This document shows positions 1-15,209 of a stretch of 64,000 bases of DNA, piece after piece. The stretch is from Bacteroidales bacterium (GTDB taxonomy: Bacteria; Bacteroidota; Bacteroidia; Bacteroidales; UBA932), in NCBI GenBank assembly GCA_017459075.1, contig JAFUDQ010000005.1:1-64000 (forward strand). The letters are read 5' to 3'. Position 1 is the first letter of the stretch; the number at the start of each line of letters is the position of its first letter. The notes under the pieces were generated by a model. The model searched no databases and was not told the origin of the DNA. It saw only the letters and a program-made list of their open reading frames with translations. A program made the position numbers and the translations under genes.

Positions 1-1
1 G

Positions 2-265
2 TTTGATTCGGCGGAATTGCATAACTTTACGGTCGCAGAATTAGCAGCATACGAATTGGACATGACAACAGAAAGGGACATACGGAATTTCATCACCGAG
101 GCTAAGGCCGAAGGACGACAGGAAGGCGAAGCCATTGGTCTTGAAAAAGGACGACAGGAAGCCGCGGAGGAAATAGCCAAGAATCTTCTTGCAAATGGGC
201 TTGATCCTGCGGTAATTGCAAAGGCCACCGGACTTACAGAGGAACAGATTAAAGTTCTTTTGTAG
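2..265 (+). CDS. Rpn family nuclease/transposase-like protein, C-terminal part
   Basis: The reading frame is open from the window edge, so only the last 87 residues are seen. The visible part has the usual tail of Rpn/PD-(D/E)XK 'putative transposase' proteins: a helical stretch with repeated EGRQEG/EKGRQE motifs, then a short end reading GLDPAVIAKATGLTEEQI. In this family the nuclease core lies N-terminal and the charged helix plus small helix-turn-helix-like end follows. A TTG at 17 is in frame but is not a believable start, because the frame continues upstream. Such genes are scattered in many copies in Bacteroidales and often sit at the edges of defence or mobile regions, which fits the operon downstream. 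The nuclease residues lie outside the window, so activity cannot be judged. Confidence 0.75.
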   Translation, partial: FDSAELHNFTVAELAAYELDMTTERDIRNFITEAKAEGRQEGEAIGLEKGRQEAAEEIAKNLLANGLDPAVIAKATGLTEEQIKVLL

Positions 266-314
266 TCTGGAGATTCATCACAATTCTGGGGTCGAAACAG
301 ACTTCTATTTGTAT

Positions 315-343
315 AGGGCAACCATGCTGGTTGCCCTCGTTTT
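315..343 (+). terminator. Rho-independent terminator after the Rpn gene
   Basis: A 10-bp perfect stem (AGGGCAACCA with TGGTTGCCCT, 3-nt loop) is followed by CGTTTTG. It lies 50 bp after the stop codon of the Rpn-type gene. Confidence 0.7.
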
Positions 344-375
344 GTCGTTCCTAGCCCAGACAGGGAACCCTTTCC

Positions 376-419
376 TGTCATTTCGACAGAGGCCTTTAGG
401 CCGTAGCGGAGAAATCTCC
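376..419 (+). repeat. Dispersed TGTCATTTCGAC repeat copy
   Basis: This copy starts with TGTCATTTCGACAG, has a small central palindrome (AGGCCTTTAGGCC) and ends with GCGGAGAAATCTC. Related copies lie at 20515, 20708, 20999 (degenerate), 25230-25351, 47276, 50651, 52811 (opposite strand) and 62362. Confidence 0.75.
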
Positions 420-559
420 ATTCCTCCGATTCATTTCATCCTTAATCGGATTGTCATTTCAATCTTTTATTAACTTTTCTGGGATATTTTGAAAAAAATT
501 ATTCTTGGGGAACTATATATATTCAGATATATTCAAATATTTTGTATATTTGACGTTGT

Positions 560-745
560 AAACGAGTTTTTTAAAATATTTATATAGCATTTGCTATTTA
601 TCTGGTTGCCCGAAACCTAGGAAATTTCAGCAGTCACCCCAGATAAGTCAGTGAATGTCTGCGCTTTGGCGTGGACTCGACTTATCTGGTGACAAGGCTA
701 TCCTAGGGCCGCGGGCATGGATAAGAAAAGTCCATGCCTTTTTTG
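560..745 (+). ncRNA. Structured small RNA with 6S RNA-like shape
   Basis: The sequence folds into a long rod. GCCCG (608-612) pairs with CGGGC (712-716), CCTAGG (616-621) with 702-707, GTCA (633-636) with TGAC (690-693), an 11-bp perfect arm CCAGATAAGTC (639-649) with 679-689, and an apical hairpin spans 658-675. A large internal loop (622-632 opposite 694-701) separates the stems. A terminator hairpin with a 9-nt loop and six T residues follows (714-744). A TATATTTG -7 box at 545-552 would give an RNA of roughly 185-190 nt. Closing stem, large bubble, apical arm and size match 6S RNA, which binds RNA polymerase. A Bacteroidales-specific 6S-like family is known, but I cannot confirm membership. 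It could instead be a leader or regulator of the defence operon, which starts 100 bp downstream. The exact 5' end is a guess. Confidence 0.6.
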
Positions 746-846
746 TTACCCTAGAGCCTTGTCTGGATAAGTAGCGCTTGCATAAAAAGTGCAGCGTGGC
801 CGCCCAAAGGAAACCCGAGGGGCTTTTGTCCCCTAAATGTCGGGAA

Positions 847-1821
847 ATGGAAGAATTATCTTACCATTTCCTAGATAATTCATTGCTCGAAAACCTTCTC
901 ACCGACCATAGCCGTCCCAAGCACGGCAAGAAATCCGCACACATCATTTGGGCCACCGACAATTACCAATCTCTTGGCCCCGAATATACCGAAAGCGAGC
1001 AAATCTACATAAAGTCCATCACCGGCGACCACGGCAACATCATCCAGCCCCGCGTCCGCAAGACTAAGGAGGAGCAGCAATCCCGTGTTCGTGACAAAGG
1101 TGAAGTCTTCACCCCGGCCTGGATCTGCAACGCCCAGAACAACCTCATTGATGCCCAGTGGTTTGGCAGCGATAGCCCCTTCAACAAGGAAACCGATAAA
1201 GGCTGGGAAACCAACCCCAACCCGATAAAATTTCCCACCAAGGACGGCAAGACCTGGCAGGACTATGTAACCGACATCCGTCTGGAGGTCACCTGCGGCG
1301 AGGCTCCTTACCTCATCAGCCGCTACGATGCCATCACCGGCGACATCATCCCCGTAGCTGAGCGCATTGGACTTCTGGGCCGCAAACTCCGCGTAGTAGC
1401 AGAGAACACGACCACGGAGGAAGAATGGTACGCCGCTGCCAAGCTGGCTTACCAGGCTACTTACGGCTACGAATGGCAGGGAGATAACCTCCTCCTTGCC
1501 CGCGAAAACGCCCTCTACACCTTCTTTGACTATTACCAGGACAAATTCGGCAAGGCACCCACCAAGGATCAGGCCCGTGAAATCGCCGAAATCATTTCCT
1601 GGAACTTCTGGCAGATGGACGGCCTCAAAGGTGTCATCCCGAATTCCTGCCACGAAGACGTTCATGTAGAACAGTCCCTTTTTGGCGACGGAGAAGAAAT
1701 CCGCATCCCATGCAAGGGCTGTGAGACTGACGACATTCGCCATCACAATGGCATATATGCCAAGATAATGGACTGGGAAATAGGCAAGCCCGTCCGATAT
1801 ATCGATCTAATAAAACAGTAG
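847..1821 (+). CDS. Restriction-system methyltransferase subunit with motif I only ('subunit M'-like)
   Basis: 324 aa from ATG 847. A TTG at 778 is in frame, but the extra residues look non-coding, and GGGAA precedes the ATG. The N-terminal half carries GEVFTPAWICN (about residues 84-94), the N-terminal signature of Eco57I/type I-like adenine methyltransferases. LEVTCGEAPYL (about 145-155) fits the AdoMet-binding motif I. No NPPY catalytic motif follows. That motif is in the next gene, whose start lies only 4 bp after this stop. I infer that the two proteins assemble one split N6-adenine methyltransferase. A late CKGCET motif may be a metal or structural site. First gene of the five-gene operon running to zorC. 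The pairing inference rests on motif complementarity and spacing, not on alignment. Confidence 0.7.
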   Translation: MEELSYHFLDNSLLENLLTDHSRPKHGKKSAHIIWATDNYQSLGPEYTESEQIYIKSITGDHGNIIQPRVRKTKEEQQSRVRDKGEVFTPAWICNAQNNLIDAQWFGSDSPFNKETDKGWETNPNPIKFPTKDGKTWQDYVTDIRLEVTCGEAPYLISRYDAITGDIIPVAERIGLLGRKLRVVAENTTTEEEWYAAAKLAYQATYGYEWQGDNLLLARENALYTFFDYYQDKFGKAPTKDQAREIAEIISWNFWQMDGLKGVIPNSCHEDVHVEQSLFGDGEEIRIPCKGCETDDIRHHNGIYAKIMDWEIGKPVRYIDLIKQ

Positions 1822-1825
1822 GAAT

Positions 1826-4800
1826 ATGGCAAGTTACGAACTATCCCTTAAGCCCTACATTATTTACTTGATGCGAATACCCGATGAAGTCCATCGCGGT
1901 TGTATCAAAGTCGGCAAGGCAGAGTTGGATACCATATATGCTCCTGTACCTGAGCCAAATAGTTCCGTTCTCAATAAGGCGGCACATAAAAGGATTCAAG
2001 AGTATACACGTACGGCAAGCATCTATTATGAGCTGAAGTATACGGAAGCGGCTTATACGATTGAAGGGAAAGGATTCCATGCTTTTGATGACAACACGGT
2101 ACACGAGATTCTTGAACGCTCTAACATAAAGCGTCATGACTTTTCCTTCCAAAACCAGGGCCGAGAATGGTATGAGTGCAGCCTTGAGACCGCAATTGCA
2201 GCAATAAAAGCAGCCAAAGAAGATCGTAAGTGTCTTGATGTTGAAGCAATAGTACCTGAACACGAAGAGATTGTATTCCGACCGGAACAAACTGAGGCTA
2301 TTGATAAAACTGTCAAACGTTTCCAGACGGGCCGCGTGATGCTGTGGAACGCTAAAATGCGTTTTGGAAAGACGCTATGCGCTCTTGAGGTTGTTAAGCG
2401 ATGCCAGTTCCATAGGACACTCATTCTTACCCATCGTCCTGTTGTTGACGAACAATGGTTTGAAGATTATAAAAAAATATTTCATAAGGGTGACGGGTAT
2501 TGTTATGGCTCACGCACTCAAGGAGATTCATTTGATTGGCTTGAGGGACAAGCTGCTTTCATAGACTGGGCGCATTACATCTATTTTGCGTCTATTCAGG
2601 ACTTACGTGGCGCAGAACTAGCAGGAGGTAAGTTTGACAAAAACCAAGAACTATTTAACACGCCCTGGGATTGCCTTATTGTTGACGAAGCTCATGAAGG
2701 GACTCAGACTGAATTGGGACAAAAGGTTCTGTCATTGCTGACTAAACCAAAGACCAAAACGCTGAGTCTGTCAGGAACGCCTTTTAACCTCATGGATGAG
2801 TATCAGGAAGATGAGATATATACTTGGGATTATGTAGATGAGCAACGCGCAAAAGCTAAATGGGACCTGGAGCATTTCGGGGATCCAAATCCTTACGCCG
2901 GTCTGCCTCGTCTCAACATCTTCACTTTTGACCTTGGAAAAGCTCTCTCCGGCTTCGAGGATATAGAAGACTCCGCCTTCAACTTCAAGGAATTTTTCCG
3001 CACATGGACAGGTGATCCGGAAAGAGACCATGGGAATATGCCAGACGGAGCCGAAGGGAAATTTGTGCATGAGATATATGTACGTAACTTCATCGATTTA
3101 ATCGTGAAATTTGATCCGGAGAGCAATTATCCGTTCTCAACCCCAGAGTATAGGTCCAATTTCCGTCATTCTCTTTGGATGGTTCCAGGAGTAAGGGAAG
3201 CGAGAGCGCTTTCTGAAATGCTTAAATGCCATCCTATTTTCACCAAATTCGAGGTTGCAAATGTTGCCGGGGAGGGTGATGACGATGTTCCCTATGATAA
3301 TGCCATGGAGTTGGTAAAGAAAGCCATGGGGAAACATCCAGAAGAAACATACTCTATCACTCTGTCATGCGGTAAATTGACAACAGGAGTTACAGTTAAG
3401 CCGTGGACTGCTGTAATGATGCTTTCGGGGTCACACAATACTGACGCGAAAGCTTACATGCAGACTATTTTCCGAGTCCAATCACCTTACACTTCAGAAT
3501 CTGGCCAGGTTAAGAAAGAGTGTTTCGTTTTTGATTTTGCTCCTGATCGGACGCTTAAAGTATTGGCTGATACCGCGCGTGTCCAAACCAAGAATACCGC
3601 ATCAGATAGTGACCGAAAGAAATTGGGAGAATTCCTCAATTTCTGCCCGGTCATCGGATACAACGGCACCAAGATGGCCACCTACAATGTGGAGAGTATG
3701 CTGGAGCAGCTCAAACGTGCCTACATATCACGTGTTACCCGCAACGGTTGTGACGACCCGCGTCTTTACAATCAGGAAATGCTCCGGAAACTGGATGCCG
3801 AGGCGCTTGCCAAGTTCAAGAACCTCCACGCCATCATCGGAGCCACCAAAGCCAACCACGCCTCAACGGATGTGGATATGGCTAAGTCCGGCCTCACCAA
3901 CGAGCAGTATGAGGAACTGGAGCGCATCCAGAAGAAGCCCAAGAAGGAACGTACTCCCGAAGATCTGGCGGCCCTGGAAGAAGCCCGGGAAAAGAAGAAG
4001 AATGCCGACAGCGCCATCTCCATCCTCCGTGGTATCTCCATTCGTCTTCCTTTGCTGATGTACGGCGCTGAACTGACTACGGATGAACAGGAAGTGACCC
4101 TGGAGAACTTTGCTTCCCTCATTGACGACCAGTCCTGGGAGGAATTCATGCCGCGTGGAGTGACCAAGGAACTCTTCGCAGAGTTTGTACCTTACTACGA
4201 CCCGGATATGTTCCGTGCTGTCAGCCGCAACTACCGTGACCTGGTCCGCGCAGCTGACCAGATGGCTCCGCTGGAGCGTACCAAGGAAATCGCCCGCATC
4301 TTCTCCTACTTCCGCAATCCGGATAAGGAAACTGTCCTGACTCCTTGGAGGGTGGTGAACATGCATATTGGCGACTGCATCGGTGGACAGGTGTTCTTTG
4401 ATACAGATATGCAGACCGAGGCAGTGAAACCGAGGTTTGTGGACCACGGAGAGGTGACTGCCAAGGTATTCAAAGACCCCAATACACGTATCCTGGAAAT
4501 CAACTCCAAGACCGGTCTCTATCCACTGTTTATGGCCTACAGCGTCTTCGCAGAGAAGTTGCAGGCCTACCGGGATAAGCACATGCTGGCCACGGACGTT
4601 CCTGTCCAGACCCAGAATCAAATCTGGGACGATGTCCTCCGGAACCACATCTTCGTCATCTGCAAAACCGAGATGGCTAAGTCCATCACCAAGAGGACGC
4701 TCAGGGGCTTCCGGCAGGCGAAGGTTAATGCACGGTACTTTGAAGACCTTATCAACAAAATCACGAACCAGCCGAATCTGTTCATCAACAAGGTGCAGAA

Positions 4801-6109
4801 CGGCATCAATTATTGGAATAACAAAGAACTTGAAGAGAATATGAAGTTCAATGCTATAGTAGGAAACCCGCCGTATCAAGTAATTAGCCATGACGGACCA
4901 CAAGCATCCCAGGCCACACCAGTGTATCATTACTTCATAAATATTGCACGTCGACTAAATGCCTCTTACGTGTCCATGATTATGCCGGCAAGGTGGTATT
5001 CTGGCGGCATGGGGATGAACGATTTCAGATCGTCTATGCTAAACGATAAAAGACTGTCCCTTATTGTCGATTTCCCTAAGAGCCGTGATTGTTTCCCCAC
5101 GGTTGATATCGCTGGTGGAATTTGCTATTTCCTAATGGACGAGAATCATAGTGGAGACTGTGTAATAGTTAACAAAGAGGGAAATCTCTCAAACCAAGAC
5201 TCGCGTGAACTCAATGAATTCCCGATATTTATTCGAAACAATATCGGTGTTCACATTATCAGGAAACTCAATCTTTCTACGAACCTATCATCAGTTGTTT
5301 TCCCCATCTCTCCGTTTGGACTTCCTACAAACACAGAGGGAACACAAAAAGCTTCTGCTGATTCTATTACACTAATTAGTAGTAAAGGCCGTAGTTTTAT
5401 CCAGAGGCAAAAGGCTAATAATCAGAAACTAGTTGGCCAGTATAAAGTAATGATTGGTCAACTAAATCCTGACCGTGGAGGGGTAAGCAATACATCTGGG
5501 GGAAGCAATGTCACAACAAAAGTTACAGTCTTAGAGCCAGATGAAGTTACAACTGCCACTTATATCATTCTTGGTGGATTTGACAGTCGGGACGAAGCAG
5601 AAAATTATGCAACCTATATTAGGACTAAGTTTGTGAGATTCCTTGTATTCCAGACTCTATCATCCATGCATATAACACAGTCGAATTTTCAATTCGTGCC
5701 TATCCAGGACTGGACTAAATCATGGTCTGATAGCGAGCTATATCGCAAGTACAATCTCACCAAAGAAGAAATTGATTATATAGAGTCCCTTATTAAGCCA
5801 ATGCAATCCGATGTATTATTTGAAACAGAAGACACATTAGATCCACAATTCGGTGAGTTTAATCTTCTTGAACACGGAGTAAAAGTTGGGGATCATATTA
5901 TTTACACACCTACAGGAACAGAGGTAATTGTTGCGCAGGACAATATGGTTGAAGTTGATGGCGAAATTATGACATTGTCCAGTTTTACTGCGCGTTTTAT
6001 GCCTCACAACAAACGAAGTATTTCAGGAGTATGTCAAGGCCCTAAGTATTTCTCATACAAAGGTGTAAGTCTTTATAAAATAAAAGAATCCTTCCTCGGA
6101 GGAAAATAG
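1826..6109 (+). CDS. Fused GIY-YIG-like domain, SF2 helicase and Eco57I-type methyltransferase
   Basis: 1427 aa. Residues about 10-130 resemble the T5orf172 branch of GIY-YIG nucleases (YIIYL, then IKVGKA, a KRIQEY arginine, and REWYECSLETA at the end). A superfamily 2 helicase follows: FRPEQTEAI near 151, Walker A AKMRFGKT near 177, DEAH box IVDEAHEG near 284, SLSGTPF near 313 and QTIFRVQSPY near 546. The methyltransferase motif IV, NAIVGNPPYQ, is near 1009-1018. The C-terminal 400 residues should hold the target recognition domain. Motif I is absent here and present in the preceding gene. The protein thus has cutting, translocating and modifying parts, like single-chain type I/IIG enzymes. 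Bases before about 3600 and after about 4830 are visibly more AT-rich than the middle, suggesting domain exchange. It sits where a type I Zorya locus would have its ZorD helicase. Confidence 0.8.
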   Translation: MASYELSLKPYIIYLMRIPDEVHRGCIKVGKAELDTIYAPVPEPNSSVLNKAAHKRIQEYTRTASIYYELKYTEAAYTIEGKGFHAFDDNTVHEILERSNIKRHDFSFQNQGREWYECSLETAIAAIKAAKEDRKCLDVEAIVPEHEEIVFRPEQTEAIDKTVKRFQTGRVMLWNAKMRFGKTLCALEVVKRCQFHRTLILTHRPVVDEQWFEDYKKIFHKGDGYCYGSRTQGDSFDWLEGQAAFIDWAHYIYFASIQDLRGAELAGGKFDKNQELFNTPWDCLIVDEAHEGTQTELGQKVLSLLTKPKTKTLSLSGTPFNLMDEYQEDEIYTWDYVDEQRAKAKWDLEHFGDPNPYAGLPRLNIFTFDLGKALSGFEDIEDSAFNFKEFFRTWTGDPERDHGNMPDGAEGKFVHEIYVRNFIDLIVKFDPESNYPFSTPEYRSNFRHSLWMVPGVREARALSEMLKCHPIFTKFEVANVAGEGDDDVPYDNAMELVKKAMGKHPEETYSITLSCGKLTTGVTVKPWTAVMMLSGSHNTDAKAYMQTIFRVQSPYTSESGQVKKECFVFDFAPDRTLKVLADTARVQTKNTASDSDRKKLGEFLNFCPVIGYNGTKMATYNVESMLEQLKRAYISRVTRNGCDDPRLYNQEMLRKLDAEALAKFKNLHAIIGATKANHASTDVDMAKSGLTNEQYEELERIQKKPKKERTPEDLAALEEAREKKKNADSAISILRGISIRLPLLMYGAELTTDEQEVTLENFASLIDDQSWEEFMPRGVTKELFAEFVPYYDPDMFRAVSRNYRDLVRAADQMAPLERTKEIARIFSYFRNPDKETVLTPWRVVNMHIGDCIGGQVFFDTDMQTEAVKPRFVDHGEVTAKVFKDPNTRILEINSKTGLYPLFMAYSVFAEKLQAYRDKHMLATDVPVQTQNQIWDDVLRNHIFVICKTEMAKSITKRTLRGFRQAKVNARYFEDLINKITNQPNLFINKVQNGINYWNNKELEENMKFNAIVGNPPYQVISHDGPQASQATPVYHYFINIARRLNASYVSMIMPARWYSGGMGMNDFRSSMLNDKRLSLIVDFPKSRDCFPTVDIAGGICYFLMDENHSGDCVIVNKEGNLSNQDSRELNEFPIFIRNNIGVHIIRKLNLSTNLSSVVFPISPFGLPTNTEGTQKASADSITLISSKGRSFIQRQKANNQKLVGQYKVMIGQLNPDRGGVSNTSGGSNVTTKVTVLEPDEVTTATYIILGGFDSRDEAENYATYIRTKFVRFLVFQTLSSMHITQSNFQFVPIQDWTKSWSDSELYRKYNLTKEEIDYIESLIKPMQSDVLFETEDTLDPQFGEFNLLEHGVKVGDHIIYTPTGTEVIVAQDNMVEVDGEIMTLSSFTARFMPHNKRSISGVCQGPKYFSYKGVSLYKIKESFLGGK

Positions 6110-6133
6110 AAAATCAAAACAACATATTATTAT

Positions 6134-7771
6134 ATGAACTTAGCTTCTCTGTTTCACGGAACGTTGGGAACTATTACGATTGTGTGGGTGGTTTTTATCA
6201 TCTTGCTGTTCGTATATGCCCTTATCCGTGCATTTAAAAAGACCGGTGTTGTCATCAAGGATTGTGACTCGCTGTCATTCCCGACCACCGAGAATGAATT
6301 GAATAAGACCCCTGTAGGGAAGATGCTGCTTGAGAACGAGCTGGAGCAGACCTCCGATTATATCGAGGATGCGGTCAGCACTCAGGCGGTGGCAGCGGAA
6401 TACAAACTGAATGTGCGTCTTATGCAGGCAGTCCCCAGCATCCTCACGAGCTTGGGTATTCTGGGAACTTTCGTTGGTCTTTCAATAGCCGTCTTAAACT
6501 TTGACACTTCATCATCCGAGAGCATCCGCGCCAGCATCGAGACCCTGCTCGCCGGTATGGGTACGGCATTCTTTACATCAGTTGCCGGTATGTTCTTCTC
6601 GCTACTTTACCTTTGGTTTGAGAGGAACCGATACAACCATCTTAGCAATTCCGTAGATGCCCTTTGCAGCCGTATCAACAAGCAGTACCACCGTCCCTCT
6701 GGTGCTTTACTGGATGCCGGTCTGGAGAAGATTTCCGGCAAGATTGATGGCCTGCAGCTCACCTTTGGAGACAACCTGGACAAAGTCTTTGACGAGAAAG
6801 TTACGCCCGTAATGACGGAGATTTCCCGCAAACTGGAGAATCCTGCCCAGACGGTTGTCGATGGCCTCCTCAACGAATTCCGGAAACTCAGTGATGGTTT
6901 TGCTGACCGTCTCACAGAGAAGGTGAACAACAAAATGAATGACCTTCTGGAGCAGTTCATTCTGGCTACCGATGAGATGAAAATAATTCCGGGAGCTATC
7001 AATACGGCAACGGATAATCTGCTCAAATCCGGCGAAACCACCATAGAGACACAGAAGGCTTACACCAAGGAGACGAAGGAACGTTTCGATAAATACACCG
7101 AGGATCTGACCAATGCTGTCAAGGGGCAGCTTAGCGAGATTCAGAAGCAGTTTGCTTCGGCATCCGGTGCATTGAAGGGCATCCCCGAGGAGATTACCCA
7201 CTCTGTTGAGGCCCAGAAGACCGTCACGGAGGATTTCGCCCAGCAGATTGCCAAACTCGACACCATTGAGGAAATCTACTCCGCAGCCATCGAGAAGATA
7301 GCCACCGCTAACAAAGACCTGGCAGATGCTAAGTCCAACATCAATGTTCTTACAAGGAGGATTGGCGAGGCATCTAAATCTATCGAAAGTGCTTCCACCG
7401 GTATGATTGAGAATAACAATAAGATGCTTAGCGATTTTGCCGCTATCTACGAACTCAACCGTGACGTTACAAGTCAGGTAAAGGATTACAGCGAGCGCGT
7501 GAGTGGCATTGAAAAAGGCTTGAAGGGTATCTTTGGTGAAATCGAGAAAGGCCTTACCAACTACGCCACCACTTCTTCTAAGAATATGCAGGGTATGCTG
7601 GACGTTTTCACCGGTGCCGTGACAAAGGCAAGCCAGGAAATATCCAACTCTACCGCACCTCTTCACGAGGCTATTTCAGGTATTCTCAACGCCCTGGATA
7701 AGACCGAGAGAAGCGCCAAGTCCCTGCTGGAAAGGGTAGAAAAACTCCCGCAACAGAAAGCAAACCAATAA
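6134..7771 (+). CDS. zorA: ZorA-like MotA/ExbB family proton-channel subunit
   Basis: 545 aa. Three membrane spans are visible: near residues 13-33, 99-122 (ILTSLGILGTFVGLSIAVL) and 138-162 (GMGTAFFTSVAGMFFSLLY). The last two form the MotA/TolQ/ExbB core with its Gly/Thr-rich helices. From about 165 on there is a long soluble helical tail rich in coiled-coil segments, as in ZorA, where it projects into the cytoplasm and links channel activity to effectors. ZorA of type I is usually longer, about 700 residues, so the tail is short here. It follows the helicase gene by 24 bp and precedes zorB by 3 bp. A MotA or TolQ of a motility or Tol system is unlikely, given the tail and the OmpA-domain partner next to zorC. 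Confidence 0.85.
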   Translation: MNLASLFHGTLGTITIVWVVFIILLFVYALIRAFKKTGVVIKDCDSLSFPTTENELNKTPVGKMLLENELEQTSDYIEDAVSTQAVAAEYKLNVRLMQAVPSILTSLGILGTFVGLSIAVLNFDTSSSESIRASIETLLAGMGTAFFTSVAGMFFSLLYLWFERNRYNHLSNSVDALCSRINKQYHRPSGALLDAGLEKISGKIDGLQLTFGDNLDKVFDEKVTPVMTEISRKLENPAQTVVDGLLNEFRKLSDGFADRLTEKVNNKMNDLLEQFILATDEMKIIPGAINTATDNLLKSGETTIETQKAYTKETKERFDKYTEDLTNAVKGQLSEIQKQFASASGALKGIPEEITHSVEAQKTVTEDFAQQIAKLDTIEEIYSAAIEKIATANKDLADAKSNINVLTRRIGEASKSIESASTGMIENNNKMLSDFAAIYELNRDVTSQVKDYSERVSGIEKGLKGIFGEIEKGLTNYATTSSKNMQGMLDVFTGAVTKASQEISNSTAPLHEAISGILNALDKTERSAKSLLERVEKLPQQKANQ

Positions 7772-7774
7772 TAG

Positions 7775-8491
7775 ATGAAACGCTCCAAAGACATAGAGAG
7801 TTCAGAGAATCCCTTCTCTCTCTCCATTGGCGACCTGATGGCAGGGGTGCTGTTCATCTTCGTACTCTTGTTGGCTTCGACCATGCTGGACATTCAGCAG
7901 AAGGCCGAGGCTGACGCAGAAATCGCGAGCCGCTACAACAATATCAAGTCCGAACTGTATCTGGATATTGCTAAGGAGTTCCACGACGACCTTGCCAGTT
8001 GGAATGCAGTGGTGGATTCCACTGACCTTGCAGTCAGGTTCCTGACAAATGAGTCACTTGATGCCAAGGTTTCCTATTTCTCCAAAGGCAGTTCTGCTCC
8101 CAGTGAACACTACAAAGACATCCTCAATGATTTCTTCCCGCGTTTTATGGCAGTCATATCTGACCCGCGATACAGGGGTGCCATTGAGGAGATAAGAATT
8201 GAGGGCCATACGGATTCGGACGGCGGGTATATGTACAACATCAACCTATCCCAGAGCCGTGCCCGTGAAGTTCTTAACTACTGCCTCAAAATCTCAGACA
8301 CTATGGAGAATGGCGAGGAGATAATGAACTGGGCGCGCTACAAGATTACCGCCAATGGTCTCTCCTATAGCCATCCTATTCTCAATTCCGATGGAACAGA
8401 AAATAAGGACCTGTCACGCCGCGTGGAGTTCAAAATAAGGACGAACGCCGAGCAGCAGCTGGAAGAAATCGCCAAAATCCGTCTGCAGTAA
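7775..8491 (+). CDS. zorB: ZorB-like OmpA-domain stator subunit
   Basis: 238 aa. One membrane helix near residues 15-38 begins with SIGDLMAGVLFIF. Asp20 is placed like the proton-carrying Asp of MotB/ZorB. A periplasmic linker follows, then an OmpA-like peptidoglycan-binding domain from about residue 120, with EGHTDSDGGYMYNINLSQSR (near 148-167) and DLSRRVEFKI near the end. In this family ZorB anchors the ZorA5B2-type ion-driven motor to the cell wall. The gene follows zorA by 3 bp, and its TAA overlaps the ATG of zorC by one base, so the three are translationally linked. Confidence 0.87.
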   Translation: MKRSKDIESSENPFSLSIGDLMAGVLFIFVLLLASTMLDIQQKAEADAEIASRYNNIKSELYLDIAKEFHDDLASWNAVVDSTDLAVRFLTNESLDAKVSYFSKGSSAPSEHYKDILNDFFPRFMAVISDPRYRGAIEEIRIEGHTDSDGGYMYNINLSQSRAREVLNYCLKISDTMENGEEIMNWARYKITANGLSYSHPILNSDGTENKDLSRRVEFKIRTNAEQQLEEIAKIRLQ

Positions 8492-9852
8492 TGGATCGTA
8501 CCGATGTCAAGAAACTGTTGGGCTTTGGCTACAACGAGGATCGGGTCTTCGGATTTGTGAAGGCTGGATTCAACGCGGAGAAGTTCAATAAGAATCTCGA
8601 AATCCTCAAGGGCATCGGAGATAAGATGCTGGAGGTTCGTGATACCCTCAGTGATGACGAAATACGCAAACTGCTGGCCCGGCTGCACAAGTCCTGGAAG
8701 GATGGTGTACCTCCGGAGTCCATTGAATTGACGCTGATGGAATCCAGAAGTGCCGGATATGGTCTTACAGAAAAGACAGAAATAGATTTCCTGTATTATC
8801 TGATAAAAGTTGAGGAAGCTGATGGTAATTGGACTCCATCATGCTTAAAAGGGTATCTGCATAGCGTCCTTCGGCACTGGTATGACTTTAAGCCAGGTGT
8901 TCGTGAGGCAATCGGTTGGTTCATCCTTAATCGCGCCGATAAAGACGCGAAGGATTTGTCCGTGCTCATTCCCTTCATTGATACCGACGGACCGGCCAAA
9001 CTGGGTACTCATCTTCGAAAGAAGAAACAATCCTGGCAGTGGGCACCGCCTACAGTCTTGATGCCGACAACCCGCATCAACTATCCCTACTTTGGTGACA
9101 CCCTGATGACGTATTTCAAAGACGTGCAGAAGGGTGAATACGACGATTTGCGTTCAGCGCTCAACCTGCATAACCAGACTCGCACCGACAAAATCCTGCT
9201 GCCGCAGCTCATCATCAAAGCAGGAAAATTCAATAAAGACCTGCTGGACATTGCTACAAAACGCATCGGAGACCCATTCGACGAATCTTGGTGGGCACCA
9301 TTCGATGGGGCGAATGCAGAGCAAAAGAAGAATCTCCGCCTGGCACGGAAAATCCTGCTCAGTTGGATAATGCAGGAGGTCATCCGCATGTTCTTTGATG
9401 TACTATGTCGAGACAAAGAACGGAAAGATTTTTGGAGCAAACAAGCCCATAAAGTGTCGGATTTTACTGTCTATGGTTCATACCAATCCAAGCAACTTGC
9501 TTTGCAGAGTCTTCCGACTCAGAACGTAAATCGGCATTTCCGTACAGTTGATTCTTCAATGGATAATTGTGCCCTGGCAATGTGTATAGGCGAATATGTT
9601 ATTATCGAATTTACTAAAGTGGGAGCTCTTTATGCTTATAAGAAAGATAGTAAAAAATACCGTGAAGCTTTTCGCGGTGCTAACAGTTTGACCAATGTCG
9701 AATCCCTAAAAGTATCTGGAATGCAGATGCTCTATGATATGGATTATCACCGATTTGCTCCTGAAGGAAAACTGGAACATAGAGGCATTGGCTGGAGAAG
9801 TAGAATGGAGAGATGGATTAGCTTTCAGATTGGAAATATAGCTGATGATTAA
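8491..9852 (+). CDS. zorC: ZorC-like EH-signature domain protein
   Basis: 453 aa, mostly helical and without membrane segments. The C-terminal third has features of the EH-signature domain that defines ZorC: a conserved Glu in EYVIIEFTKVGALYAYKK (Glu373) and a downstream His in LEHRGIGWRSRMERWI (His430; His420 is another candidate). In type I Zorya, ZorC is a cytosolic DNA-binding partner that works with ZorA, ZorB and the ZorD helicase-nuclease. Its presence places this locus closer to type I than to type II (ZorE) systems. No separate ZorD follows, and the operon ends in a strong hairpin. The last 400 bp are more AT-rich than the front of the gene. Assignment is from motif and context. Confidence 0.8.
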   Translation: MDRTDVKKLLGFGYNEDRVFGFVKAGFNAEKFNKNLEILKGIGDKMLEVRDTLSDDEIRKLLARLHKSWKDGVPPESIELTLMESRSAGYGLTEKTEIDFLYYLIKVEEADGNWTPSCLKGYLHSVLRHWYDFKPGVREAIGWFILNRADKDAKDLSVLIPFIDTDGPAKLGTHLRKKKQSWQWAPPTVLMPTTRINYPYFGDTLMTYFKDVQKGEYDDLRSALNLHNQTRTDKILLPQLIIKAGKFNKDLLDIATKRIGDPFDESWWAPFDGANAEQKKNLRLARKILLSWIMQEVIRMFFDVLCRDKERKDFWSKQAHKVSDFTVYGSYQSKQLALQSLPTQNVNRHFRTVDSSMDNCALAMCIGEYVIIEFTKVGALYAYKKDSKKYREAFRGANSLTNVESLKVSGMQMLYDMDYHRFAPEGKLEHRGIGWRSRMERWISFQIGNIADD

Positions 9853-9974
9853 TGAGCTTAGTTGATTAAGTAATAATTGCTATATATGCTGCAAATGCTG
9901 GATATTAGTGGAGTCGCGCCATTATCCGGACTAGCAAACTAATACTCCGGTTTTCTTTTGAAATGCTTCTGCCA

Positions 9975-10065
9975 GGTGCAAAATGGCCTTTCTTGCACCG
10001 CGCGGTGACAAAAAACAATAGTTGCGGTGCAAAACAAGCCATTTTGCACCGCAACTAAGTTTTTT
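9975..10065 (+). terminator. Double hairpin ending the defence operon
   Basis: The 282-bp gap between zorC and DUF3737 has no gene. It holds a first hairpin (9975-9999, GGTGCAA/TTGCACC) and then a 16-bp perfect stem (10019-10034 with 10042-10057, 7-nt loop) followed by AGTTTTTT. The two hairpins share sequence in inverted form (GCAAAATGGC at 9978 against GCCATTTTGC near 10038), so alternative pairing between them is possible. Confidence 0.75.
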
Positions 10066-10079
10066 GGTAGTATTTCATA

Positions 10080-10123
10080 GAGTTGCCTGGGCCGGGGGCC
10101 CACCGAGGGCTGCCCGGCAACTC
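10080..10123 (-). terminator. Hairpin after DUF3737 gene
   Basis: GAGTTGCC (10080-10087) pairs with GGCAACTC (10116-10123), with an inner GC-rich stem. It lies 12 bp beyond the minus-strand stop at 10135. No clear T tract follows on the minus strand, so it may be a palindromic spacer rather than a terminator. Confidence 0.4.
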
Positions 10124-10134
10124 CCTGCCGGCAC

Positions 10135-10989
10135 TTACTCTGTGGTAATGAGGCAGTTGCCCGGGGCTTTGATGTTTTTGTCTATAATGAGTTCTCCGAT
10201 GCTGCCGGCGTGGATGGAGCCGGTGCGGGGGTTCTTGACGGAGACGATGTGGCCTTTGACGGTAGCCTTGACTGAGGAGTACTCGAAGGCGAGGTCTGCG
10301 TCGGGGGCGAAGGTGCAGTCTTCAAGGACAAGGTCTTCGGCATAACAGAGGGGCTGGCTGCCGCCTATGTGGCAGCGTACCAGTTTGAGGCCGCGTGAAT
10401 GCCATCCAAGGAACTCGCCGTTAATAACAGAGTCATAAACGGTTACGTTTTCTGTCTCCCAGAAGGCGTCCTTGGTGTTGAGAACGGAATTATGAATTTC
10501 TACATTCTTTGTCCACTGGAAAGAATAGTTGCCGTTAAGCTTGAAATTGTGAAGTACTATGTCGTGGCATTTCATGAAGATATAGTCTGCGCGGTCCGCT
10601 ACAAGGTCCCGGGCCTCTATGTTGCCGCAGTGCCAGAAGGTCTCGGCGGCAGAGCCTATTATCACATTCTTAATCTTGATGCCTTCCATCTCGCGGAACA
10701 TCTTGGGAGCGTCCACGATTGTGTCTTCCATCACAAGATTCTTTGAATACCACAGCGCGGCACGGGCGCCTACGGTGAAGATGCAGTCGCGTACCTCAAA
10801 GCCGTCGCAGCACCAGAAGGGATACTTGCCCTCAAAACGGCAATGTGTCGCGCGGATGTTGGAGGTCTCCTTAAGTGCGGATTCTCCGGCATGGATAATC
10901 ACGCCTTCAAGGTCAAGGTTATGTTCACAGTAAAGCGGACGTTCTCCGCCAAATTCCTGATTCTTAATTGGTTTTAGTTCGGTATTCAT
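10135..10989 (-). CDS. DUF3737 family right-handed beta-helix protein
   Basis: 284 aa. The whole protein is a run of short, roughly 20-residue repeats of beta-helix type, such as EVRDCIFTVGARAALWYS, NLVMEDTIVDAPKMF and GLKLVRCHIGG. The start NQEFGGERPLY and the DCxF/xSVxN pattern fit DUF3737, whose function is not established. No signal peptide is seen, so it is probably cytoplasmic. It is the last gene of a likely minus-strand operon, 16 bp after the MATE exporter gene. Fold is clear; role unknown. Confidence 0.8.
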   Translation of the reverse strand: MNTELKPIKNQEFGGERPLYCEHNLDLEGVIIHAGESALKETSNIRATHCRFEGKYPFWCCDGFEVRDCIFTVGARAALWYSKNLVMEDTIVDAPKMFREMEGIKIKNVIIGSAAETFWHCGNIEARDLVADRADYIFMKCHDIVLHNFKLNGNYSFQWTKNVEIHNSVLNTKDAFWETENVTVYDSVINGEFLGWHSRGLKLVRCHIGGSQPLCYAEDLVLEDCTFAPDADLAFEYSSVKATVKGHIVSVKNPRTGSIHAGSIGELIIDKNIKAPGNCLITTE

Positions 10990-11005
10990 AGTTTTAAATT
11001 ATTTG

Positions 11006-12442
11006 TCATTTTATCTGAAGCCCGCCAACCAGGGCCTTTTTCATCCATCCGCGGCCGCGAATCCTCAAAAGGAACAGGATACCGCGGATGTTAAGTTCTA
11101 TACACATCGGAATCCAGTATCCAAGAAGCCCCATTTTAGGCGTGAGAATAAGGGCCAGTCCGATTCTGACTATCCACATTGTGGTAAAATTAAGGATACT
11201 TGGAATCATCGTATCTCCGGCGCCCACACAAGAGCCGTAGGCTACGATGGATGCAGCGTAAAGAGTCTCTGCAAACGCCTCTATTCTAAGTACTTGCGCC
11301 CCAAGCTCAATCACAGAGGCATCGTTGCTAAGGATAGACATTATCTGAGGGGCAAAAAGGAACATTACGGCCGCCAGAATGGTCATCATCGCCATTCCTG
11401 AAAGAAGGGTGATGCGAGAGAAACTGCGCGCCAGCTTCTCACGTGCGGCGCCAAGGCTCTGTCCCACAAGGGTCGTGGCAGCATCGGCCATACCGAAACC
11501 GGGCATGTAGCAAAGGGCCTCGGCGGTGATGGCAAAATTGTTGGCGGCAATGGCTACGGCACCGAGCGGCGCCACGATAATGGTTCCGGCTATATGGGCC
11601 CCGCGCATGGCAACGTTCTGAAGCCACATCGGCCCGGAAATACCAAGGGCGTTCTTAAGGCATTTGGCCGACGGGCGGAAGCTTCCCCTGTCCTGTCGCA
11701 GGTTCAGCTGGGGGGAACGGACAAGCACGCACCACATCATAATGCCGGCTGTGATAGCCATGGCAAGGCCTGTCCCAAGGGCCGCTCCGGTAACGCCAAG
11801 ACCGGCGCCAGGCATTGTGATATCCATCCCGAGTACAGTCACCTCCCGGGTGGGGAATATCAGGAAGAAATTGAATATCACGTCCATAAGGCACATCACA
11901 ACGTCCAGGATGCTGGGAAGTTTCATGTTTCCGCTGCACTGGAGCATCGTTCCGCCAAGCCAGGTAATCTGCATGAACGGAAGGCTCAGCGAATATATGA
12001 AAAAGTAACTGGAAGCATCGGCCGCAATATCTTCACTCCCGCCAAGCCAGTGTGGGAGGAAAGGACTTATCGCAACCCCAATCAGTGCCAGCGTCAGGCT
12101 TAAGCCAATGCAGGACGTGAGGCTTTCGCGAAGCACCTGCCTTGCCGCCTTGAAGTCATTCGCCCCTATCAGATGGGCAACCTGGACCGAAAAGCCCTGG
12201 CAGGCTGCGAACAGGAAGCCTCCGAACAGCCATGTCGTAGTTGCTATAAGGCCGATGGAAGCGGATGGATTCGCCCCCAGGCTGCCAACCATTGAGGCGT
12301 CGATGAACTGAAGCAGCACCGATGCCAGCTGTGCGACAATGGCCGGCCCGCAAAGAAGCATAGTAAGGCGGAACTGCTGTTTCGTAGTCAGTTCCGCCCC
12401 TGTCCTGATGCCTTCCAGCAATATGTCTTTGCTGACTGCCAC
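11006..12442 (-). CDS. MATE family efflux transporter
   Basis: 478 aa with about twelve hydrophobic segments in two halves, as in MATE exporters that use a Na+ or H+ gradient to expel cationic drugs or metabolites. The N-terminal half carries LLCGPAIVAQLASVLLQFID and the second half GISGPMWLQNVAMRGAHIAG, matching the pseudo-repeat of the family. Length is normal. It starts 6 bp after the GH53 stop codon, so it is probably co-transcribed with that gene. Substrate cannot be told. Confidence 0.88.
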   Translation of the reverse strand: MAVSKDILLEGIRTGAELTTKQQFRLTMLLCGPAIVAQLASVLLQFIDASMVGSLGANPSASIGLIATTTWLFGGFLFAACQGFSVQVAHLIGANDFKAARQVLRESLTSCIGLSLTLALIGVAISPFLPHWLGGSEDIAADASSYFFIYSLSLPFMQITWLGGTMLQCSGNMKLPSILDVVMCLMDVIFNFFLIFPTREVTVLGMDITMPGAGLGVTGAALGTGLAMAITAGIMMWCVLVRSPQLNLRQDRGSFRPSAKCLKNALGISGPMWLQNVAMRGAHIAGTIIVAPLGAVAIAANNFAITAEALCYMPGFGMADAATTLVGQSLGAAREKLARSFSRITLLSGMAMMTILAAVMFLFAPQIMSILSNDASVIELGAQVLRIEAFAETLYAASIVAYGSCVGAGDTMIPSILNFTTMWIVRIGLALILTPKMGLLGYWIPMCIELNIRGILFLLRIRGRGWMKKALVGGLQIK

Positions 12443-12448
12443 CCCGGC

Positions 12449-13597
12449 TTACTGGTTTTTGAAAAGTTTAACTACATCGGAGACTTTTCCGTCCGATGTG
12501 AACGCTCCCATATCGTAGGCATTCCAGCCAAGTTGGGTGTATTTGGATGGTTTCCATCCTCCGTAAACCTCAGGTTCCCAGTAGAGAATGCCTTTGCAGG
12601 CGGTAATCTTGTAGATGCTTTCTATGAAGCTCTTCAGGCAGGTGACTCCTGTCGCAATGTCGCTGGACTTGATACCGGTCTCAACTATCATAATGTCCTT
12701 GCCGGTCTTCTCTGCCAGCTTGGTGATATTCGAGACAGCATCGGCATTGACAGAAGAGTAGCTTGCGCCGCTTTTATCAGCCTGAGGGTAGTGGGAAAGG
12801 CCGATGAGGTCTGTTTTTCCGCCGCCGGCGGTGAATTTTTCAAACCACCAGAGATTGTCCTCATAGGCGTGGTTCAGGTGAACGAAGACCTTGGCACCGG
12901 AAAATACGCTCTTGGCTGCATTGTAGCCGGCATTGCTGAGCTCTATGTAGCGGGCCCATCCGCCGGAAATGTCTCCGGAATTGTTCCACAATTGTCCGTC
13001 CGGCCAAAGCATGCCGTTTCGGGTCTCATTGCCAATCTGGATATATGTGGGGTTGATTTTGTCAGCCTTAAGCTTGGTAAGAAAATCTGTAGTATGCTGC
13101 TTTACCAAAGTCACTAACTCTGCATGGGTCTTACCGCTCCATGCAGCAGGGGGAGTCTGCGTGTCCGGGTCCGCAAAAAAGTCGCTGTAATGGAAGTCCA
13201 GCATAACCGACAGACCTGCATCCTGGGCCCTCTTGGCCTTGGCGTAAACATCGTCATAAGCACACCATCCGCCGTCAGGATTCACCCATACGCGAAGGCG
13301 TACAAGTGTCTGCCCCAACTCCTTGAGCATCAGGAACAAATCTTTCTGGTTGCCGCTTGCATCATAGAACTTTTTGCCGTCTTTTTCCATCTCCGTCACC
13401 CAGCTTACATCGGAGCCGAAGACAAAGTCCGTCCTTGCCGTGCTGCCGCTTCCGCCGCCGGGATTTGTGCCGCCTCCATTGCCACCGCCGCCGGTCTCCG
13501 TGCCGGGCTCTGTGCTGCTTCCGCCACCGTCTTTACCGCATGAAACAAAGGCAAATAAACTAGCCAATATTGTAATTGCAAGAGCTATTTTCTTCAT
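12449..13597 (-). CDS. Secreted GH53 endo-beta-1,4-galactanase lipoprotein
   Basis: 382 aa from ATG 13597. The frame stays open further upstream, but that part overlaps the tmRNA gene and has no signal peptide. The N-terminus is a lipoprotein signal (MKKIALAITI ... VSCGKDGG), followed by a Gly/Ser/Thr-rich linker. The GH53 barrel starts at FVFGSDVSWVTEME. Candidate acid/base Glu is in QIGNETRNGMLWPDG and nucleophile Glu in IMIVETG. GH53 enzymes cut beta-1,4-galactan of type I arabinogalactan from plants. A full promoter lies just upstream. There is no SusC/SusD pair beside it, so it is not in a classical polysaccharide utilisation locus. Confidence 0.88.
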   Translation of the reverse strand: MKKIALAITILASLFAFVSCGKDGGGSSTEPGTETGGGGNGGGTNPGGGSGSTARTDFVFGSDVSWVTEMEKDGKKFYDASGNQKDLFLMLKELGQTLVRLRVWVNPDGGWCAYDDVYAKAKRAQDAGLSVMLDFHYSDFFADPDTQTPPAAWSGKTHAELVTLVKQHTTDFLTKLKADKINPTYIQIGNETRNGMLWPDGQLWNNSGDISGGWARYIELSNAGYNAAKSVFSGAKVFVHLNHAYEDNLWWFEKFTAGGGKTDLIGLSHYPQADKSGASYSSVNADAVSNITKLAEKTGKDIMIVETGIKSSDIATGVTCLKSFIESIYKITACKGILYWEPEVYGGWKPSKYTQLGWNAYDMGAFTSDGKVSDVVKLFKNQ

Positions 13598-13618
13598 AAG
13601 AACAAAAATTATTGGTTG

Positions 13619-13648
13619 CAAATATATTAAATATTTGCCTGAAATCAA
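13619..13648 (-). promoter_or_regulatory. Promoter of the GH53 operon
   Basis: On the minus strand, TTG (13648-13646), a 19-bp spacer, then TATATTTG (13626-13619). This is the Bacteroidales sigma-ABfr pattern, 21 bp before the lipoprotein start. It overlaps the divergent tmRNA promoter. Confidence 0.7.
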
Positions 13649-13667
13649 GATATTATTTATACCTTTG
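13634..13667 (+). promoter_or_regulatory. Promoter of the tmRNA gene
   Basis: TTTG (13634-13637), 22 bp, then TACCTTTG (13660-13667), 11 bp before the mature tmRNA 5' end. It overlaps the GH53 promoter on the other strand. Confidence 0.65.
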
Positions 13668-13678
13668 CCGATAGTTAA

Positions 13679-14073
13679 GGGGATGTTTTGGTTTTGACAG
13701 CATTGACCTCTGACGGTAAGCAAGCCGGGCGCTGTGGGGCGGCCCGTTAATCCCGACCCTCGAAAATTCAGTTGGCAACAACAACTATGCACTCGCTGCC
13801 TAATTAGACTCAGTCAATTAGCTTAATCCGCGGCGCCAAGGCTGCGCCGCAGACGAGTATCCCTCGGAACTTCCGCCCGTTATCTTCCGACCCAGGGGTA
13901 TCATTCAGAACGGGACGCACCGGCGGACGCCTTTAAAGCCGGCCAAGATTAAAGGCTAAGGGTTTGGTGGCCCGTCTTCCGGCAGCCTTTCCCCTACAAT
14001 CAAAGGAAGAATAAGCTTGTAGAAAGCCGCTGGATGCGGTGTTTGGACGGCGGTTCGAGTCCGCCCATCTCCA
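13679..14073 (+). ncRNA. ssrA: tmRNA (transfer-messenger RNA)
   Basis: The 5' end GGGGATG (13679-13685) pairs with CATCTCC (14066-14072) to form the acceptor stem. The 3' end has a tRNA-like T arm with GGTTCGAGTCC, and A14073 is the discriminator base; CCA is not encoded. The tag reading frame, starting within CTCGAAAATTCAGTTGGC, gives ENSVGNNNYALAA followed by TAA after the alanine added from the charged tmRNA. That ending is the usual Bacteroidales degradation signal. The RNA rescues stalled ribosomes with SmpB. One-piece gene, about 395 nt. Confidence 0.95.
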
Positions 14074-14091
14074 CAAATAAGATTATCTTTT

Positions 14092-14580
14092 ATGAAACAG
14101 TTAAGGTATTTGTTCTTTGTCTTGGCTGCAAGTATTGTCATGTCTTGCGGCAACAATGGTGGCTCCGGCATTAAAATGAAAGATGTCATCGGCATGCAGA
14201 AGTGGGCAGGGGCGGTAGAAGAAAAATCGGCCGGCAAGCAGCAGGCTGAAGAATTCAACGAGCCGGAGAACTTTGAGGAGCCGGAAGGCTTTGAAGAGTC
14301 CGAAGATGAGTATACAGAGGCTAACGGCATGCCTTCATGGGTATACGGAAAATGGACCTGCACCACTCCTTACGGCACTGAAAACATGTGGATAAACAAA
14401 GAACTCATCCTTTACCGCTCCGCCAATTCAGAGGACAGCGGCACCTATTCTTATTCAAAGGGTACCATCAGGGTGACTTACAGTAAAGAAAACGGAGTCG
14501 TCACCTCCATGCAGGTAGACCTTAGGAACCGCCGCATTGAATACGGTGGCGGCTATTACTGGCAAAAATTAAGTAACTAA
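14092..14580 (+). CDS. Small lipoprotein of unknown function
   Basis: 162 aa. Lipoprotein signal with SIVMSCGNNGG, then a Glu/Pro-rich acidic linker (EEFNEPENFEEPEGFEES, near 52-70), then a compact C-terminal domain (about 80-162) beginning WVYGKWTCTTPYGTENMWIN and ending in YYWQKLSN. Short beta strands suggest a small barrel like those that bind lipids or peptides in the periplasm, but I do not recognise a named family. It starts only 18 bp after tmRNA and no separate promoter is obvious, so read-through from the tmRNA promoter is possible. Confidence 0.75.
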   Translation: MKQLRYLFFVLAASIVMSCGNNGGSGIKMKDVIGMQKWAGAVEEKSAGKQQAEEFNEPENFEEPEGFEESEDEYTEANGMPSWVYGKWTCTTPYGTENMWINKELILYRSANSEDSGTYSYSKGTIRVTYSKENGVVTSMQVDLRNRRIEYGGGYYWQKLSN

Positions 14581-14597
14581 TTCAAAACCAAAGCAAT

Positions 14598-15206
14598 ATG
14601 AAAAAATTTTTCTCAGTTTTCTGTACTCTGGCCATTGGCCTTTTTGCAGCATCATCCTGCATAGAGGATGAGTACGATCTTGAAAAGAAAATTGACAAGA
14701 CCATTGAGCTGAAGAACTTCACTTTCGCCTTGAAGGAAACGTACACTTTCAACATCAAGGACATCCTTCTTGCAAAGTATCCCGTTGCAGCCCTTCTTAT
14801 AGAGGGTACCGACATCACCGTAACTCTTGAGGATGGCGTACTTGGTGAATTCAATGTAGACGGCATTGCCGATGACCTTACCACCGATTATATCTTCAAG
14901 CACGGTGTTGTTACAGCAACTGTAATCAACGGTCTTCCGGAGCCTTTCTCTGCAACAGCCGTTGCCGTTGACAAGAGCGGAAACGCCCTTTCCAACATCA
15001 CTGCAACATGCAGCCCCTCCACCATTCCCGTCGGCACGTCACAGATTACCGTCGACGTAAAGAGCAATGGAAACATCAATTTCGACGGTGTCCGCTTCGC
15101 CCTTAAGATGGATGCAGAAAAGGTTAAGTTCAGCAGCAGCCAGAGTGTGACTGTAAAAGACTTCGTTATTTCATTCCCTGACGGTATTTCCAAGAAAAGC
15201 GAGTAA
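14598..15206 (+). CDS. Hypothetical lipoprotein with beta-sandwich-like body
   Basis: 202 aa. Signal peptide with lipobox AASSCIED (Cys near 21), then EDEYDLEKKIDKTIEL, a motif often seen at the front of uncharacterised Bacteroidales surface lipoproteins. The rest alternates beta strands without Cys. It lies 17 bp after the preceding lipoprotein gene and 3 bp before the DUF5723 gene, so the three are probably one transcript and may work together at the outer membrane. No known family recognised. Confidence 0.75.
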   Translation: MKKFFSVFCTLAIGLFAASSCIEDEYDLEKKIDKTIELKNFTFALKETYTFNIKDILLAKYPVAALLIEGTDITVTLEDGVLGEFNVDGIADDLTTDYIFKHGVVTATVINGLPEPFSATAVAVDKSGNALSNITATCSPSTIPVGTSQITVDVKSNGNINFDGVRFALKMDAEKVKFSSSQSVTVKDFVISFPDGISKKSE

Positions 15207-15209
15207 ACC

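Follow-up and report, generated by a model that had tools for sequence, protein, structure and literature searches.

How the membrane motor of a Zorya defense system sets its nuclease to work, and against which DNA, is the open question of these systems. The operon examined here, from a Bacteroidales bacterium, puts that question in a particular form: zorA, zorB, and zorC stand behind two restriction-modification (R-M) genes, and no gene for the type I effector ZorD is found with them. Which protein, then, might take the part of ZorD? The stretch analyzed, hereafter the window, comprises bases 1-64,000 of a 77,488-base contig in a 2.3-Mb assembly of 53 contigs. We interpret the operon as an R-M-coupled variant of type I Zorya in which exchangeable R-M translocase-nucleases replace ZorD, a reading that we give an even chance of being correct.

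Results

A zorABC operon preceded by R-M genes

The layout of the locus (Table 1) is the one that a sequence-only reading of this DNA had described: the open reading frame (ORF) calls agree exactly on five co-directional genes separated by 4, 24, and 3 bp and then by a 1-base overlap. The ATG start of the first gene at 847 lies inside a longer TTG-started frame that opens at 778. That reading had also recognized the three Zor proteins, rightly by the profile searches, and had put the R-M genes in the place of ZorD. The latter description needs amending: R-M genes are present and ZorD is absent, but the R-M genes lie 5' of zorA. The gene for ZorD normally follows zorC in type I Zorya, and in the window this slot is empty, the next long frame past zorC (10135-10989 in the ORF calls) being on the minus strand.

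Table 1. Features of the operon and its end, in window positions
Feature	Position	Strand	Remarks
R-M partner gene	847..1821	+	324 aa
Helicase-methyltransferase gene	1826..6109	+	1427 aa
T5orf172 (GIY-YIG-like) match, candidate nuclease	1982..2212	+	weak N-terminal match
C-terminal extension of the large enzyme	5807..6106	+	~100 aa, peculiar to the window copy
zorA	6134..7771	+	545 aa; MotA/ExbB core, then long helical tail
zorB	7775..8491	+	238 aa; membrane helix with Asp20, OmpA peptidoglycan-binding domain
zorC	8491..9852	+	453 aa; EH-signature domain
Operon end; zorD position in sister loci	9853..10134	.	no ZorD remnant

By our tests for the Zorya core, the window has a ZorA, a ZorB, and an EH-signature ZorC. 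ZorA matches Pfam MotA_ExbB and PADLOC ZorA (E 6e-25). ZorB matches PADLOC ZorB2 (E 6e-65) and OmpA (39.6 bits; cut-off 27.2), its profile matches the solved chain 8vvi (E 1e-63), and the membrane-helix aspartate at residue 20 is invariant in all eight aligned sequences. ZorC scores 51.6 bits for EH_Signature (cut-off 27.5) and E 2e-13 for PADLOC ZorC; its Glu373 and His430 are invariant in the five sequences aligned, and its profile matches the solved ZorC 8r68 (E 1e-3). None of the three window proteins reaches the strict equivalog cut-offs of NCBIfam, and they are divergent relatives of the known Zor proteins.

ZorD was sought both at the locus and beyond it. A tblastn search of the 64-kb window with five ZorDs gave a single match, of E 0.25 at 57.5 kb, where a control locus gave E 0. 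A first search of the whole assembly (~98% complete) returned no match; a second returned a single one (E 1.5e-4, query 426-522), in a 1092-aa frame. Neither search found a ZorD, and the positive controls, in three genomes, gave E 7e-220 or lower. The claim that zorABC stands here with R-M genes and without ZorD holds at the locus and in the assembly.

Three kinds of R-M module at the same junction

A scan of 84,980 species genomes (genome_contigs) with a four-sequence ZorB alignment found 335 relatives; the 80 best were retained. Another ZorB search, made in 101 relatives, was overwhelmed by ordinary OmpA proteins. The nearest relatives are four loci, L125-L128, from four species of a single genus other than that of the window. 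By BLAST, their proteins are 66-70% (ZorA), 89-92% (ZorB), and 67-71% (ZorC) identical to those of the window, and in the multiple alignment the ZorA values are 74-75%. Among the 99 genomes of that genus, only these four have this ZorC. ZorD was matched at none of the four loci, that of L126 being visible for 396 bp past zorC, and no full-length ZorD was found in the whole genomes of the window, L125, L127, and L128.

All five loci of this clade carry R-M genes ahead of zorA in the same orientation, and the zorA, zorB, and zorC frames are open in all five. ZorD-less zorABC stands directly behind R-M in the window, L125, L127, and L128, and also in L126 at its contig edge. The modules are of three kinds. 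That of the window is a two-part enzyme. In L125 and L128 the place is taken by a 1636-aa Type ISP enzyme, its two copies 95.6% identical; the L125 copy, which was scanned, contains Mrr_cat_2, ResIII, ISP_coupler, N6_Mtase/Eco57I, and Type_ISP_C domains. L126 and L127 have Type III Mod and Res genes, then a DndD/PbeC-like ATPase and a HerA/DndH-like ATPase (L126 scanned), the HerA-like gene adjoining zorA. The nearest upstream gene ends -8 (L125), 11 (L128), 24 (window), 29, and 29 bp (L126 and L127) from zorA; the L125 value follows the start chosen by the ORF caller and is 10 bp when counted from the start homologous to those of the other loci. The next relative, L129, carries a Type III Mod-Res pair 30 bp upstream of a complete zorABCD.

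In a ZorB tree of 95 rows, made by a quick method, the window groups with L125-L128 with a support of 96, L129 joins them with 100, and a 28-row clade around them has 98; the other 23 rows of that clade are all labeled ABCD. The simplest reading would be that zorD was lost once, at a time when R-M genes already preceded the operon.

Two side observations concern proteins of these loci. The Mod proteins of L126 (116-1966) and L127 (202-2013) are 15-31% identical over alignment columns 181-360 and 57-92% elsewhere (78-92% near the ends), a drop that suggests a swapped target-recognition region. The ZorA tails of L125-L128 differ in length from that of the window by blocks of ~30 and ~40 residues that resemble internal repeats.

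Exchange of modules by recombination inside zorA

When zorA-zorB-zorC from L125-L128 are aligned as DNA, 464 sites set two sequences against the other two, divided 339, 115, and 10 among the three possible pairings. From window-equivalent position 6139 to ~6598, nearly all of these sites pair L125 with L128 and L126 with L127, matching the R-M module over the first 0.3-0.45 kb of zorA; identity in this stretch is 94-97% between L126 and L127 and 72-76% between L125 and L128. From ~6598 to ~9400 the sites pair L125 with L126 and L127 with L128, and the identities in comparison windows over 6734-8924 are 92-99% for the former pair and mostly 90-98% for the latter. At the end of zorC the module-type pairing returns, carried by L126 and L127 at 92-94%; the two ISP loci are only 70% identical there, and the idea that the ZorC C terminus tracks R-M type was dropped. 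The pairings fall into 20 runs, where 172.7 are expected (0 of 10,000 shuffles).

Among L125-L128, then, different R-M modules have been placed before near-identical zorABC bodies by recombination inside zorA. Because the DNA past zorC is common to L125, L127, and L128, the pattern is consistent with replacement of the front module at one chromosomal site. The zorABC genes are under purifying selection: in the pairs L125/L127 and L125/L128, dN/dS is 0.016-0.018 for zorB, 0.06-0.08 for zorA, and 0.07-0.10 for zorC. Values of dS against the window are saturated, and dN/dS was taken only within L125-L128 pairs.

The R-M pair of the window and its distribution

The upstream pair had been described as a GIY-YIG-like/helicase/methyltransferase protein with a partner, and the domain searches bear this out. 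In the 1427-aa protein, Pfam finds a ResIII helicase (E 5e-16) and an Eco57I methylase (E 6e-31), PADLOC IIG matches with its best stretch at residues 1000-1326, and the motifs MRFGK, DExH, SGTP, IFR, and NPPYQ are conserved across 90% or more of an 18-sequence alignment. The GIY-YIG-like match is weak: T5orf172 scores 15.6 bits in the whole protein, below the cut-off, and 20.8 bits (cut-off 20; E 5.7e-4) against the first 150 residues alone. The 324-aa partner is PADLOC MTase_II (E 1e-113), matched no Pfam family, and carries EVxTP and LExxxGE residues that are invariant in seven of seven aligned sequences. Since these residues are in the partner and NPPY is in the large protein, the methyltransferase seems to be split over two genes, and the partner looks like the N-terminal, S-adenosylmethionine-binding part of a split adenine methyltransferase.

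At its C terminus the large enzyme extends ~100 aa beyond the point at which 17 of 17 aligned relatives stop. The sole match of this extension is the PADLOC candidate family PDC-S57 (E 4e-14), and nothing in Pfam matched it; presumably it resembles a RAMA/DUF4357-type domain. A docking extension common to the modules was considered and rejected, a phmmer search of the window C terminus over all ORFs of the loci having matched only itself.

The partner gene occurs in 19 of 393 genomes of the window's order, the window's included, and 18 of 19 other places were examined in stretches of 6.4-18 kb, one contig-end fragment (G716) being left out. A full-length homologue of the large enzyme adjoins at 14 of them; at two the neighbor is alike only in its C-terminal (methylase) part, and at two, where the partner is at a contig end or fragmentary, there is none. 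No Zor gene was found in the stretches fetched for these 18 loci. By itself the R-M pair is an ordinary stand-alone system, and the idea that it is Zorya-specific was dropped.

The EH-signature family of ZorC was found in two of apparently the same 393 genomes, that of the window and G519, where it is part of a zorABCD whose Zor proteins are identical to those of L168 (Acetofilamentum); within the window's genus (>400 genomes), none of 399 other genomes drawn had this ZorC. Plasmid searches gave one weak record for ZorC and 23 for ZorB, from which five stretches were opened, and 85 for the large enzyme, the last all below 60% identity (chiefly from Enterococcus, with 38, and Lactococcus, with 9; 36-42% among the 30 listed). 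The 23 ZorB records share no accession with the 30 listed of the 85 enzyme records. Viral contigs scanned with ZorC, ZorB, the enzyme, and a ZorC alignment yielded no relative.

The sequence-only reading had proposed a search for recurrence and had named two outcomes that would tell against it, namely that R-M genes and zorABC occur together only in this genome, or that a ZorD gene is found elsewhere and the methyltransferase pair acts alone in related strains. The search divides the first. Among the loci and genomes examined, this R-M family does occur with Zor genes only here, but R-M of other kinds precedes ZorD-less zorABC in other genomes. As for the second, the pair does stand alone in relatives; no ZorD gene turned up elsewhere in the window assembly.

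Upstream neighbors among 101 Zorya loci

As a background rate, 101 Zorya loci were labeled with our own ORF caller and BLAST, with Pfam and PADLOC applied to selected upstream genes, and a close upstream neighbor was counted when a co-directional ORF of at least 150 aa ended between -60 and 40 bp upstream of the first zor gene and at least 1.5 kb of upstream sequence was present. Seventeen loci with less than 1.5 kb upstream were dropped from the counts, and L075-L078 were left out (one short fragment and three with a divergent Zor match or none). Of zorABC loci without ZorD and with at least 3.3 kb visible downstream, four of five have a close upstream ORF, the exception being L153, and of the two at contig edges L126 has one and L159 does not. 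The figure for zorABCD is 3/34: the Type III module of L129, the HsdR (Type I system) of L143, and a PEGA-domain protein in L141, with an Eco57I methylase three genes further upstream. Among zorABE loci it is 5/36 (L071; L083; L079, with an FtsK-like neighbor; L192, NERD-HRDC behind a UvrD-type helicase; and L204, a tRNA-synthetase-like protein behind a methylase-specificity R-M protein), and among AB-only loci it is 2/7. The clade of five differs from zorABCD with a Fisher P of 9.7e-5 (4.7e-4 counting L153), a value to be read with the clade's common descent in mind, the observations not being independent. Three module kinds at the same junction are the stronger argument.

Several surveyed loci have neighborhoods of their own. 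On the Spirosoma linguale plasmid pSLIN01 (L083, 1965-9451), genes resembling Type III R-M (a DNA methylase and a ResIII/TnsA-like protein) lead into zorA-zorB-zorE across gaps of 8 and 29 bp, and in L071 (4097-11126) a 1473-aa MTES_1575 helicase-nuclease ends 0 bp from the zorA of a type II Zorya. HsdM, HsdS, and HsdR precede complete zorABCD in L137 (1032-14830) and L143 (3-15441), with HsdR 87 and 33 bp away, respectively, and BREX-like PglZ, BrxL, and KAP genes lie upstream of the complete zorABCD of L145. L169 (9002-10675) and L186 (8513-10663), from Butyricimonas and Odoribacter, carry genes resembling zorA and zorB, and neither ZorE nor ZorC was matched at these loci, whose surrounding ORFs read like a polysaccharide cluster. 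In the window itself, a tmRNA gene is predicted at 13679-14074 (tag GNNNYALAA), overlapping the 5' end of an opposite-strand long frame.

Discussion

The reading that we favor assigns the Zor proteins their type I roles. ZorAB would act as an ion-driven envelope sensor and ZorC as a DNA-binding or adaptor subunit, and the operon would supply an R-M translocase-nuclease in lieu of ZorD, which in the related L065 locus is an SNF2 helicase with an Mrr nuclease. When a phage injects its DNA, the R-M enzyme would be concentrated or licensed at the point of entry by the motor and ZorC, and host DNA would be shielded by its methylation. Because every module kind has a ResIII-type translocase (with an Mrr nuclease in the Type ISP enzyme, as Type III Res, and with the GIY-YIG-like domain in the window), the neighbor offers the translocase-nuclease that ZorABC lacks. 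In the accessible part of PMC11890865, deleting any one component of the tested Zorya I abolishes defense, and ZorABC should for that reason need a partner. We infer from these arrangements co-transcription, physical contact, licensing, gating of the R-M enzyme by the motor, and a role for that enzyme as the nuclease that Zorya needs.

A number of observations weigh against this reading. The five loci all belong to one clade and represent two genera. The L126 contig ends before the place of zorD comes into view, and the L126 genome has a 1371-aa frame that matches the helicase part of ZorD (query 434-898, E 5e-58). In L126 and L127, the ATPases could be the partner instead, because the HerA-like gene adjoins zorA and Res is further off, its end 232-240 bp from the DndD-like gene. 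The 5' ends of zorA in L125 and L128, which share a module type, reach only the 72-76% identity given above, against 96-97% for L126 and L127, and no docking domain common to the R-M modules was found. The 18 other Bacteroidales loci of the R-M pair are without Zor genes, and L153 (8228-12184, Desulfoferrobacter) has zorABC with 8.5 kb visible downstream, without ZorD and without a co-directional upstream neighbor. R-M, helicase, or BREX genes also precede loci that keep ZorD or ZorE (L129, L137, L143, L145, L071, L083, and L204), so an R-M neighbor is not exclusive to ZorD-less loci. Any physical or functional link between R-M and Zor proteins is putative.

Some of the same evidence would fit a layered cassette, in which R-M and zorABC share transcription and inheritance but work independently, zorABC using an unlinked host nuclease or ion flux. 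We consider this possible, if on balance doubtful. The stand-alone homologues suggest that the R-M enzyme can do without Zor proteins, R-M or BREX genes lie upstream of complete zorABCD in L129, L137, L143, and L145, and defense genes cluster generally, according to the accessible parts of PMC12458937 and PMC13192584. The tested Zorya I, however, fails without ZorD (PMC11890865, accessible part), yet zorABC is under strong purifying selection here, and zorABCD loci seldom have so close an upstream gene (3/34).

Chance adjacency in a defense hotspot, with zorABC the orphan remnant of a type I Zorya after loss of zorD, seems improbable to us. The R-M pair without Zor genes elsewhere would, taken alone, suggest it; the window's combination is unique in the samples searched, and L153 demonstrates that zorABC exists without ZorD or an adjacent R-M. 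Chance would nevertheless have to account for R-M at five of five loci in the clade, in three module kinds and with gaps of at most 29 bp, for the exchange of modules at the same junction, and for zorABC frames that are open in all five loci, with dN/dS of 0.016-0.10 in two pairs. An assembly or binning artefact can be dismissed as highly improbable, for although the operon begins 846 bp from the contig end and the assembly (completeness 97.97) has a contamination estimate of 8.16, the 24-bp junction of R-M and zorA lies within one contig and equivalent junctions occur in four other assemblies.

R-M-coupled zorABC can be set beside several known systems. With type I Zorya (ZorABCD) the window has in common the zorA-zorB-zorC order and an EH-signature ZorC, and its ZorB is nested among those of zorABCD loci; it differs in lacking ZorD and in having R-M genes upstream in the operon. 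In relation to type II (ZorABE), the window ZorB is matched best by ZorB2 and the 8vvi chain, but the window has ZorC and no ZorE (BLAST of 1-16000); the type II loci L083 and L071 likewise have R-M or helicase genes upstream. Type III (ZorABFG) likewise has a ZorAB core with other genes in the effector position (PMC8565338, accessible part), but no DUF3348 or DUF2894 match, as for ZorF and ZorG, was found in the five window proteins. On the R-M side, two-gene helicase/Eco57I systems are found on plasmids of Lysinibacillus, Enterococcus, and Lactococcus, the Lysinibacillus one with an upstream partner gene; these differ from the window in that no Zor genes adjoin them, at the 18 Bacteroidales loci and the single plasmid stretch inspected, and in lacking the C-terminal extension in the 17 sequences aligned. 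The Type ISP enzymes (LlaGI, LlaBIII) have a counterpart in the corresponding place ahead of zorA in L125 and L128; the enzyme of the window shows no match to Mrr, ISP coupler, or Type_ISP_C and is accompanied by a partner gene.

Zorya also recurs beside other DNA-targeting systems, as in the arrays of Zorya II, Druantia III, and ARMADA, where the accessible parts of PMC13192584 and PMC12458937 report synergy of Druantia III with Zorya II and with ARMADA. Zorya II in those arrays keeps its effector ZorE, in contrast to the window, which has no Zorya effector gene. A partial literature search found no description of ZorD-less zorABC with R-M genes, which does not establish absence from print.

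More tentatively, at somewhat less than even confidence, ZorABC may be a portable envelope alarm that can be attached to any R-M translocase-nuclease. The effector would be one from which methylation protects the host, its specificity would be changed by swapping whole modules through recombination in zorA, and self would be told twice, by the place of entry and by methylation. If one ZorABC works with three unrelated R-M architectures, the signal from motor to nuclease would be generic, such as location or ZorC-bound DNA, rather than docking to ZorD. Host DNA damage is reported for tested Zorya systems in the accessible part of PMC11890865. If the R-M-coupled reading is true, methylation would supply self-protection, and classical restriction could come under infection sensing.

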